64,000 nt of DNA from NCBI GenBank assembly GCA_017795005.1, contig CP051242.1:3464119-3528118 (forward strand), in the 5' to 3' direction. The notes under the pieces were generated by a model that was not told the DNA's origin, did no database searches, and was given only the letters and a program-made list of their open reading frames with translations. The DNA comes from Balneolaceae bacterium (lineage in GTDB: Bacteria > Bacteroidota > Rhodothermia > Balneolales > Balneolaceae). The translations under genes and the position numbers were made by a program. Positions 27,908-31,156 of this stretch are shown here, one piece after another (the stretch's first letter is position 1; every line of letters starts with the position of its first letter).

Positions 27908-28091
27908 TCCTCCCTAGAGGGAGGTGGATTGCGAAACAAAGTGTAGCAAGACGGAGGGTGTCCTTCAGTTTGGAGTTGGTTGCCAAACCAATATGTTCTT
28001 GGTTTCATCTGAGGGGTGTTCAGGATTTTATTCAGGATCTCGCCCTATCTGACACCCTCCGCCCCTTCGGGGCACCTCCCTCAAGGGAGGA
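27908..28091. repeat. palindromic intergenic repeat element A, DUF559-associated
   Basis: The left end is a hairpin TCCTCCCTAGAGGGAGGTG (27908-27926) followed by GACGGAGGGTGTC (27950-27962). The right end carries the inverted counterpart GACACCCTCCG (28051-28061), then CCCCTTCGGGG, then a CACCTCCCTCAAGGGAGG hairpin (28074-28091). The whole block is therefore a long imperfect inverted repeat. Its right hairpin contains the TGA stop codon of the DUF559 gene at 28081. A related element lies at 28519-28641 and a short relative at 43666-43702. Confidence 0.8.
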
Positions 28092-28458
28092 CTATTTTTT
28101 CGATTCTTTGCTTCAAATACATACGCACCGAATCCATATTTATCTTTACGTCAAAATCATTAATTCGAATAATTATAATCCCAAATTGGAGCAACTCATA
28201 ATCTCTGATTTTATCCTTTTTTATTGTATCAGGATCATCATGAGAACTACCATCCACTTCAATTGCTAGTTTAAGCTCATGGCAATAAAAGTCGAGGATA
28301 TATTCTTGTACGGGTACTTGCCTGTGAAATTGAACTCCTAGTTTCCTTTTACTGATTTCTTTCCAAAGTAAAATTTCACCTAATGTTGAATTCTTTCTTA
28401 GTTCTCTTGCAAACTTCCTGAGACTAGGATTGTATGGTATGATTTCATTCCTTGCCAT
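28081..28458 (-). CDS. DUF559 (Vsr-like nuclease fold) protein, intact motifs
   Basis: A 125-aa protein from the ATG at 28458; earlier starts at 28464 and 28476 are possible. NSTLGEILLWKEISKRKLGVQFHRQVPVQEY, LDFYCHELKLAIEVDGSSH and IIIIRINDFDV fit the DUF559 consensus, including the Asp and the Glu/Lys expected for a PD-(D/E)XK-type metal site. The gene ends with VLP and a TGA that lie inside the palindromic hairpin of element A, and another element (28519-28641) lies 60 nt upstream of its start. It is thus packed between two copies of one repeat family. Function is unknown; a nuclease linked to the repeats is a hypothesis. Confidence 0.8.
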   Translation of the reverse strand: MARNEIIPYNPSLRKFARELRKNSTLGEILLWKEISKRKLGVQFHRQVPVQEYILDFYCHELKLAIEVDGSSHDDPDTIKKDKIRDYELLQFGIIIIRINDFDVKINMDSVRMYLKQRIEKIVLP

Positions 28459-28518
28459 ACACATTAGATCACCCAAAACTTAATTCCTTACAAAAGAATT
28501 AGATCAAAGCTCAAAAAG

Positions 28519-28641
28519 TCCTCCTTTGAGGGAGGTGGATTCATGAGCGAAGCGAATGAAGACGGAGGGTGTTCTTAGATTTGGAGTTAGTTGCCACTCC
28601 AACACCCCCCCCGCTTTGTGGTACTCCCCTCAAGGGGAGAC
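28519..28641. repeat. palindromic intergenic repeat element B, DUF559-associated
   Basis: Same design as element A: hairpin TCCTCCTTTGAGGGAGGTG (28519-28537), GAGCGAAGCGAATGAAGACGG, GGAGGGTGTT (28564-28573), then an inverted half with AACACCCCCC (28601-28610) and a closing hairpin ACTCCCCTCAAGGGGAGA (28623-28640). It lies between the DUF559 gene and the small membrane ORF. The GAGCGAAGCGAA core also occurs in the repeats around the GIY-YIG gene. Confidence 0.8.
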
Positions 28642-28668
28642 TTGGAATCTTTTTATGAACACGTATTT

Positions 28669-29448: not shown

Positions 29449-30207
29449 ATGCCATCAAAAAAAGTCGAGTTTACCGGAGCACTTGGAGAGACATTAGCTG
29501 CAAAACTGGATCTTCCTGAGGAAGAAAACATCAAAGCATATGCCCTCTTTGCTCATTGTTTTACCTGCTCTAAAGATTTGAAGGCAGTAGGAAATATAAC
29601 CCGACAACTGGCAGAGGTTGGAATCGCAACACTCCGATTTGATTTTACGGGTCTTGGAGAAAGTGCCGGAGATTTCGCCAATACAAATTTCTCGTCCAAT
29701 ATCGATGACTTAGTTGCCGCATGCCGGTTTTTGACGGAAGAATATGAAGGACCATCCATTTTAATTGGTCATTCGTTGGGTGGCGCTGCAGTTCTTCAGG
29801 CAGCAAATCAAATGGATTCGGTAAAAGCGGTTGCCACTATTGCTGCCCCTGCTGAACCCGAGCATGTAAAACAGAACTTCGAGATGAGTCTGGATGAGAT
29901 TGAAGAAAAGGGAGAAGCTAAAGTCACCCTTGCAGGTCGGCCTTTTACGATCAAAAAGCAGTTTGTGGATGATCTTGAAGAAGTACGAATGAAAGATTAC
30001 ATCAATAATCTGGACCGGGCACTCATTATCTTTCATTCACCCATCGATAATACCGTTGGAATCGATAATGCCCAGAAAATATTCGTGGCAGCAAAGCATC
30101 CCAAAAGTTTCATTTCACTCGATACAGCCGATCACCTTCTTCATGAAAAATCAGATAGTGAGTTTGTCGGGAAGGTGCTTGGAACATGGGCGGAGAAGTA
30201 TATTTAG
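29449..30207 (+). CDS. alpha/beta hydrolase (OsmC-associated type)
   Basis: A 252-aa cytoplasmic alpha/beta hydrolase. FAHCFTCSKDLKAV around residue 34 forms the oxyanion region, LRFDFTGLGESAG follows, the nucleophile is Ser in IGHSLGGAA (about 107-115), and the late ADHLL supplies the catalytic His. This sequence type often forms the N-terminal half of a hydrolase-OsmC fusion; here the protein stops after the hydrolase domain and no OsmC segment is visible downstream. Repeat DNA starts 24 nt after the stop. Substrate unknown. Confidence 0.85.
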   Translation: MPSKKVEFTGALGETLAAKLDLPEEENIKAYALFAHCFTCSKDLKAVGNITRQLAEVGIATLRFDFTGLGESAGDFANTNFSSNIDDLVAACRFLTEEYEGPSILIGHSLGGAAVLQAANQMDSVKAVATIAAPAEPEHVKQNFEMSLDEIEEKGEAKVTLAGRPFTIKKQFVDDLEEVRMKDYINNLDRALIIFHSPIDNTVGIDNAQKIFVAAKHPKSFISLDTADHLLHEKSDSEFVGKVLGTWAEKYI

Positions 30208-30231: not shown

Positions 30232-30307
30232 TTCACGAGCGAAGCGAAGTGATCTCTGTATTTGGATGCGAAGATTCAGAGACTGCTTCGCTATCGCTCG
30301 CAGATGG
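30232..30307. repeat. REP-like repeat, left copy, flanking GIY-YIG gene
   Basis: About 76 nt, starting TTCACGAGCGAAGCGAAGTG and ending CGCTCGCAGATGG. It folds on itself: GAGCGAAGCGAAGTGATCTC pairs imperfectly with GAGACTGCTTCGCTATCGCTC. The same sequence, in the same direction, is at 30657-30731. Confidence 0.85.
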
Positions 30308-30347
30308 GTCAGTAATCATGAGCGTAAGCAAAATGATTGCAGACGCT

Positions 30348-30638
30348 TTAATTACTCAAATCTTTCCAATCCGGATTTATCGATCTAATTAAATCAATCT
30401 TTTTCTGTCTGGATCCAGCCTTTATTTGGTACTCTCTTTGTTTTGCTTCTTCTTCATCTCCGTACTTTTCAAAATAAATCAGCCTATCAATATTATATCT
30501 GGCTGTAAAGCTTTTTGGTACTAACTTTTGTTTATGCTCTATCATCCTTTTGGATAAGTCATGGGTTCTTCCGGTATATAGAACTGTTCTTCTCTTATTT
30601 GAAAGTATATAAACATAATAAGTGGGACCGATTTCCAT
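30348..30638 (-). CDS. GIY-YIG domain endonuclease-like protein
   Basis: A 96-aa single-domain protein. YYVYILSN (7-14) and LYTGRT (20-25) are the GIY and YIG halves, with the catalytic Arg likely in the DLSKRMIEH segment. RLIYFEKYGDEEEAKQREYQIK includes the conserved Glu, and the ending GSRQKKIDLIRSINPDWKDL is usual for short UvrC-domain proteins of Bacteroidota. Catalytic residues look intact. The gene stands alone on the minus strand between two direct copies of a 75-nt palindromic repeat (40 nt and 18 nt away), which is the notable context. Substrate unknown. Confidence 0.85.
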   Translation of the reverse strand: MEIGPTYYVYILSNKRRTVLYTGRTHDLSKRMIEHKQKLVPKSFTARYNIDRLIYFEKYGDEEEAKQREYQIKAGSRQKKIDLIRSINPDWKDLSN

Positions 30639-30656
30639 ATTGAATTATAGAAAACA

Positions 30657-30731
30657 TTCACGAGCGAAGCGAAGTGATCTCTGTATTTGGATACAAAAAT
30701 CCTGAGACTGCTTCACTACGTTCGCAGATGG
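30657..30731. repeat. REP-like repeat, right copy, flanking GIY-YIG gene
   Basis: About 75 nt, a direct copy of the element at 30232-30307. The first 35 nt are the same up to CTGTATTTGGAT; the remainder diverges slightly (CTTCACTACGTTCGCAGATGG). Together the two copies bracket the GIY-YIG ORF. Confidence 0.85.
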
Positions 30732-30814: not shown

Positions 30815-31156
30815 ATGATCTCAAAAGAACTCATGGCTGCGTCAACGCGCCCACTTATTTTATCGATTCTGAAACGTGGAGAAAGCTACGGTTATCAAAT
30901 TATTCAGGATGTAAAACAACTTTCCGGTGGAACCCTGGAATGGTCAGATGGTATGCTTTACCCTGTACTTCATAAACTTCAAAAGGATGGTTGTATTGAA
31001 TCCCGCTGGGTGAAATCGGAAGAAGGGCGAAAAAGGAAATACTACTCAATTACCAATATTGGTCTTCAAGAACTTCAAACTGCAAAAGACCAGTGGTCAA
31101 GTATTCATAGTGTACTTGAAACCATCTGGGGTCCCGCTCAAAAATGGGCTATTTAG
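30815..31156 (+). CDS. PadR-family transcriptional regulator
   Basis: A 113-aa winged-helix repressor-type protein. LILSILKRGESYGYQIIQDVKQLSGG (about 13-38), WSDGMLYPVLHKLQKDGCIESRW and EEGRKRKYYSITNIGLQEL form the canonical PadR DNA-binding domain; a short C-terminal helix would give the dimer interface. The transporter gene starts 15 nt after it with a strong ribosome binding site, and PadR genes of this type usually sit directly before permease-prefix FtsX transporters. It probably controls this pair. Confidence 0.9.
   Translation: MISKELMAASTRPLILSILKRGESYGYQIIQDVKQLSGGTLEWSDGMLYPVLHKLQKDGCIESRWVKSEEGRKRKYYSITNIGLQELQTAKDQWSSIHSVLETIWGPAQKWAI

Follow-up and report, generated by a model that had tools for sequence, protein, structure and literature searches.

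What would a gene for a small nuclease be doing on its own between two unrelated genes, enclosed by two copies of the same hairpin in the same direction? This question is raised by positions 30232-30731 in the window, namely the whole stretch of 64,000 nucleotides from a Balneolaceae bacterium (contig CP051242.1) that was analyzed here. The features concerned are as follows:

29449-30207, + strand: alpha/beta hydrolase gene (upstream), kept in relatives and used as the anchor for locating empty sites
30232-30307, + strand: left REPIN-like hairpin dimer, composed of a unit TTCACGAGCGAAGCGAAGTGATCTC (30232-30256), a spacer (30257-30278), and an inverted unit (30279-30307)
30348-30638, - strand: lone GIY-YIG nuclease gene (96 aa; PF01541)
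30657-30731, + strand: right REPIN-like hairpin dimer, composed of a unit (30657-30681), a spacer (30682-30703), and an inverted unit (30704-30731)
30815-31156, + strand: PadR-family regulator gene (downstream), which adjoins the hydrolase gene also in a genome of the same genus (G001), there without the GIY-YIG gene

As the preliminary description of this DNA had it, a repeat of about 75 nt flanks the lone GIY-YIG ORF on both sides in the same orientation, with gaps of exactly 40 and 18 nt; coordinates, identity, and folding all agree with this. Indeed, the direct repeats (76 nt on the left and 75 nt on the right) are identical at 68/76 positions, and both of them fold, as DNA, better than their shuffled sequences (z = -3.9 and -2.9 for the left and right copies, respectively), albeit with imperfect stems. 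The match between the two flanks of the gene scored 54.5, as compared with 11 at most for shuffles. Each copy of the repeat consists of two units of 25-29 nt that face each other head to head across a 22-nt spacer and hence has the layout of a REPIN, i.e., a head-to-head REP dimer. When known RNA families were looked for, no Rfam match was obtained for the window hairpin, and a literature search with the raw repeat sequences returned nothing relevant.

The ORF in between is intact and matches Pfam PF01541 (E = 3e-14), and the window protein has all of the residues that do not vary across a 17-member alignment of the family (Y10, Y21, G23, R31, H35, E69, and N88). The nearest solved structures by sequence are those of UPF0213/YhbQ-type proteins (PDB 1zg2 and 1ywl), which are distant (E = 3e-11) and, like the window protein, single-domain proteins of ~100 aa. 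The sole match in NCBIfam was a sub-threshold one to group I intron endonucleases. A role of the protein in anti-phage defense was also considered but rejected, given that PADLOC gave no match for it.

We propose, with a probability of roughly 0.7, that 30232-30731 constitutes a REPtron-like unit with a single-domain GIY-YIG nuclease placed between copies of a matched hairpin and predicted from the sequence to act on that hairpin. The nuclease would recognize its cognate hairpin in the folded single-stranded form, which could become exposed at replication forks, during repair, or in transforming ssDNA, and would cut it. Repair or re-insertion of the hairpin-bounded fragment would then spread bare hairpins (REPINs) and, more rarely, the entire hairpin-gene-hairpin unit, and recombination between the direct copies might later delete the gene and leave one hairpin. 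GCGAAGC is known as an unusually stable DNA mini-hairpin; because the core of the window hairpin is GCGAAGC, this stability would be in keeping with recognition as folded ssDNA.

The home genome (3.75 Mb in one contig) has eight PF01541 matches, two of which are domains of larger proteins. Genome-wide repeat counts were obtained by a pattern search, and the core of the window repeat was matched at 14 positions with at most three mismatches in the 3.75 Mb, as compared with none for a reversed control pattern. Among the five other lone GIY-YIG genes of this genome, four are bracketed as well, each by a different hairpin:

L001: hairpin GTCATTCCCGCGAAGGCGGGAATC, gene between two dimers as in the window
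L002: hairpin GTCATCCTGAGGATACCTCCGAAGGATC, gene within a dimer
L003: hairpin GTCATCCTGAACTTGTTTCAGGATC, gene within a dimer
L005: hairpin GTCATCCAGAGCGAATGCGATGGATC, gene between two dimers as in the window

With that of the window included, the home genome contains five REP-flanked nucleases with five different hairpins. The fifth of the other lone genes (L007; C1:1012316 of the home genome) adjoins a gene for tRNA-Gly together with a partial copy of that gene.

Such an arrangement might arise by passive hitch-hiking; namely, hairpins acting as terminators or mRNA stabilizers are common between genes, so that a lone intergenic insert falls between hairpins to which its nuclease is unrelated. 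REPs are indeed found preferentially downstream of genes (PMC3733652), and the hairpin units in the window adjoin gene ends. In Bacteroidota genomes picked regardless of repeats, however, similar sequence (a flank match with a score of at least 18) was found on both sides of 51/72 lone GIY-YIG genes, a count that pools hairpin-flanked and tRNA-flanked genes, but of only 5/238 control genes in the same loci (Fisher p of about 2e-35); even among small control genes, similar flanks were limited to 3/78. By label, the 75 sampled loci are divided into 36 with a hairpin or other repeat, 27 with tRNA, 10 with neither, and two that were too short. Hairpin units of the GTCA[TC] type, furthermore, reach a density of 3.6 per kb beside the genes versus 0.18 per kb at distances of more than 1 kb, which makes hairpins 20-fold denser at GIY-YIG genes, and the type of hairpin tracks the lineage of the nuclease and not the host, as described below. 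Hitch-hiking is already largely refuted by these controls and is considered highly improbable.

The contigs were also scanned with an alignment of seven close relatives of the window nuclease, the 17-sequence alignment being too diverse, and 80 loci in many phyla were obtained. Matching flanks were found at 55 of the 78 testable loci (in Bacteroidota, Calditrichota, Acidobacteriota, Chloroflexota, Cyanobacteria, Proteobacteria, Firmicutes, Patescibacteria, and others), mostly as GTCATTGCGAG...GCAATC-type hairpins, the window repeat being a variant of these; the direct-repeat layout was frequent among the flanked loci. Across 148 Bacteroidota genomes, both the ATTGCGAG hairpin and the nuclease were present in 28, only the hairpin in 7, only the gene in 41, and neither in 72 (odds ratio of 7 and p = 6e-6, calculated from raw genome counts with kinship ignored), and 12 of the 84 ATTGCGAG REPs were located within 1 kb of a cognate gene, where 0.04 would be expected. 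The genome-wide association between repeat and GIY-YIG genes that the preliminary description had proposed to test is hence very strong, in terms of both the flanks and the co-occurrence. There are also genomes that deviate from this pattern. G039 has 405 hairpins of the ATTGCGAG type, and neither the window nuclease type nor RAYT was found in it; its enzyme may have been lost or be of an unrecognized kind. G111 has 128 copies of the hairpin, and the scanned pattern is absent from the flanks of its nuclease gene. Rhizobium tumorigenes has a GIY-YIG gene without hairpins, and Photobacterium has hairpins on one side only. In another genome (L285; G148:C83), 11 of the 12 ATTGCGAG hairpins lie within ~2.6 kb of a single cognate nuclease gene.

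The type of hairpin is predicted by the lineage of the nuclease and not by the host, both within one genome and across phyla. Similarity between the proteins was correlated with that between the stems (Mantel r = 0.42), for which 2000 permutations with kinship partly corrected gave a null distribution with a standard deviation of 0.077 and a maximum of 0.29; the correlation was weaker in the subset of 18 loci from Bacteroidota only (r = 0.33 with a null maximum of 0.38). Also, the same branch of the nuclease keeps one type of hairpin across Bacteroidota, Betaproteobacteria, Deltaproteobacteria, Cyanobacteria, and others. In the two genomes of the same genus, G001 and G002, the L001-, L002-, L003-, and L004-type genes carry hairpins of the L001, L002, L003, and L004 type, respectively, and four of the five hairpin types in the home genome recur there beside the nearest relatives of the nucleases.

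As to whether the unit moves, the window site itself differs among relatives. The junction between the hydrolase and PadR genes in G001, where the hydrolase is 97% identical, has one degenerate hairpin and no GIY-YIG gene, and the same site in G002, likewise without a GIY-YIG gene, has one hairpin from that family. In 13 other relatives with the hydrolase found, no GIY-YIG match was present in the stretch read around the hydrolase. The ORF is, therefore, not a constant resident of this place, being missing even from relatives in the same genus. In G001, the single repeat could be what a loss left behind instead of the state before insertion. Empty sites were also found in Azospirillum; A. lipoferum 4B (L198) has a dimer-gene-dimer unit between sufB and sufC, while the sufB-sufC junctions of A. 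oryzae, A. ramasamyi, and Azospirillum sp. B510, the flanks of which are 95-96% identical, contain neither the gene nor a REP. At the same junction, Shinella (L210) has a separate GIY-YIG unit with another type of hairpin, and a plasmid of Sphingomonas parapaucimobilis (L211) has a DUF559 gene. Furthermore, related nucleases with the same type of hairpin are found within one genus at sites that are unrelated: across three same-genus genomes, the flanks of six L003-type genes have nothing in common except one 99-nt stretch. An L002-type gene occupies the same site in two genomes. The empty sites, the other loci, and the repeat-gene association thus support the earlier proposal that the cassette is a unit capable of being copied, excised, or mobilized, and it may have been moved by the nuclease, by host recombination, or by another machinery. 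The likeness to homing genes that was drawn in the same proposal is an analogy, given that the insertion sites are intergenic and the empty sites in the relatives of A. lipoferum have no repeat.

A sub-case of the REPtron-like reading, with another mode of movement, is homing into existing hairpins, in which an empty hairpin is cut and the break is repaired from a hairpin-gene-hairpin copy, so that every new copy has two flanking hairpins. This would fit with the one hairpin without a gene at the window site in G001 and G002 and also with the frequent direct-repeat layout. No hairpin is present, however, at the empty sites in Azospirillum, where either the whole unit was inserted or the hairpins arrived with it; in units of the Chryseobacterium type, moreover, the gene replaces the spacer of a dimer, for which two full copies are not needed. 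We thus regard homing into hairpins as unlikely.

Among the duplications, only one in G001 is recent with mappable ends, and this copied unit of 607 nt extends beyond the hairpins to inverted ends that are attC-like, so that other machinery may have moved it. If such machinery (integron-like recombination at attC or recombination among dispersed repeats) moved the unit alone, the nuclease would be mere cargo. The duplication is, however, a single case, the attC-like pattern of ends was seen in two fetched loci only, and the status of cargo leaves the matching between nuclease and hairpin unexplained; this explanation is hence very unlikely. At three loci in G001 (L266, L267, and L262), GIY-YIG units are located within or close to inverted ends that resemble attC, TAACGACCCGGCGTTTAAGCGG...CCGCTTGAAACGCTTGTTA, and a complete attC-like site is present in the vicinity; these are possibly integron cassettes that carry nuclease-hairpin units.

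The REPtron-like reading also bears on the kind of repeat to which these hairpins belong. Widespread GIY-YIG proteins called the Ssn family were reportedly described by Chenal, Veyrier and co-workers in 2025 (in Nature Communications) as site-specific for single-stranded DNA; the Neisseria member is said to cut ssDNA at a repeat present in hundreds of copies and to modulate natural transformation, and other homologues reportedly act on their own sequences. Like the window protein, Ssn has a single GIY-YIG domain with the catalytic residues. If that description is accurate, the recognition of a repeat by the enzyme has already been established for part of this group, of which the window locus is a further case; the link to CGTC-REPs, the empty sites, and the parallels with tRNA and DUF559 are what is added here.

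Regarding that link, Di Nocera et al. (2013) reported CGTC-tagged REPs in five phyla and judged them to be without a dedicated transposase (PMC3733652). These REPs, which include Neisseria dRS3, Rickettsia RPE-4/6, and Wolbachia repeats, have a GTC foot and a stem starting with AT and are mostly head-to-head dimers in intergenic positions, an anatomy common to the hairpins flanking GIY-YIG genes; while no dedicated enzyme was given in 2013, the enzyme associated here is that of the lone GIY-YIG gene. Indeed, a hairpin-flanked lone GIY-YIG gene is found in A. lipoferum, N. aromaticivorans, S. meliloti, and Neisseria, all of which are hosts named in that paper; the flanking hairpins are clearly CGTC-tagged in A. 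lipoferum and Neisseria, and the units in S. meliloti and N. aromaticivorans are a related form that failed the strict unit scan. The window hairpins are head-to-head dimers, intergenic, and dispersed in the genome like CGTC-REPs, but their unpaired CGTC/TGTC foot tag has decayed (CATTCAC/CCATCTGC in place of GTCATTGC), so that one defining feature is missing from them and present in their relatives: GTCATTGC is kept in the related genomic copies L012, L013, and L015 and at the gene of the nearest relative (L262). As for the stem of 8-9 bp from AT with a loop of 4-5 nt in CGTC-REPs, the units at other loci fit a GTCA[TC] foot with a stem of at least 5 bp, and the window stems are, as mentioned, imperfect.

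These results suggest that the GIY-YIG nucleases belong with a widespread class of repeats that previously had no dedicated enzyme reported. Interspersed hairpin repeats rank among the most frequent non-coding elements in bacterial chromosomes, and CGTC-REPs constitute one of their two large superfamilies; the question of the missing enzyme becomes directly testable with a lineage-matched nuclease. If the proposal is true, a simple nuclease can found a genome-wide family of repeats without any transposase. More tentatively, lone small nucleases in general (GIY-YIG, DUF559, and the tRNA-linked GIY-YIG clade) might be dedicated, lineage-matched mobility enzymes of bacterial hairpin repeats, the whole CGTC-REP superfamily included, that spread as hairpin-bounded units without a transposase; we consider this extension possible, though somewhat doubtful.

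RAYT (TnpA-REP) REPtrons and REPINs are similar to the present unit in that the enzyme gene lies between its own hairpins, the families are subclass-specific, and bare dimers are found elsewhere. RAYT is, however, an HUH tyrosine (Y1) transposase with a GT[AG]G foot, whereas the window enzyme is a GIY-YIG protein and the foot here is GTC(AT). According to PMC6006769, moreover, RAYT REPtrons do not transpose as units, in contrast to the GIY-YIG unit at different sites in close relatives. RAYT was rejected as the mobilizer of the GIY-YIG hairpins, given that none was found in G039 and that those hairpins do not flank the RAYT loci in G111. GIY-YIG homing endonucleases (I-TevI and the free-standing Seg/Mob of phages) share the domain family and the patchy presence and absence; unlike them, the window gene is not in an intron or intein, is flanked by hairpins, and encodes one domain in 96 aa. 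Indeed, no split gene exists at the window site, where relatives keep one hairpin.

Alternatively, the enzyme might be a safeguard of the host and not a selfish mobile element; that is, a housekeeping or DNA-uptake nuclease for which the hairpins are cutting marks, either to limit transformation or to resolve REP hairpins at forks. The hairpin-flanked GIY-YIG genes are in fact maintained under purifying selection, with dN/dS of 0.06-0.24 between pairs of related genes (the pair of the window gene and its nearest relative in G001 is excluded because of saturated synonymous sites), and a safeguard would be consistent also with the REPtrons of RAYT not moving as units and with the reported modulation of natural transformation by Ssn in Neisseria through repeats. 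A host function is, however, difficult to reconcile with the patchy presence of the genes, their number of up to 25 per genome (G086), the clean insertion at sufB/sufC in one species only, the unrelated sites within one genus, and the in-frame stops in some copies of the ORF, and is thus rather improbable. The 25 GIY-YIG matches in G086 include adjacent runs of several at L075 (G086:C31) and G086:C34, suggesting local amplification.

Nucleases are associated with repeats in other forms as well. A distinct clade of shorter GIY-YIG proteins (mostly 80-100 aa) adjoins tRNA genes, which are of many isotypes and invariably share the strand of the GIY-YIG gene; 27 such loci were found (L007 and 26 others, e.g., L048, L061, L062, L070, L085, and L102). 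The other side of these genes often holds a partial copy of tRNA, in which a palindrome can replace the anticodon arm. On the protein tree, the linkage to REP or tRNA requires 4 changes versus 22-27 with shuffled labels. Lone DUF559 genes have matching flanks at 20/36 Bacteroidota loci, mostly CCCCTCC..GGAGGGG-like hairpins, and DUF559 with its own hairpins would constitute, as judged from these flanks, a parallel nuclease-hairpin system. In the window, a lone DUF559 nuclease-like gene (28081-28476, - strand) is located ~2 kb from the GIY-YIG unit and is bracketed by direct copies (27908-28097 and 28519-28642) of a different long hairpin, TCCTCCCTAGAGGGAGGTG...CACCTCCCTCAAGGGAGGA.
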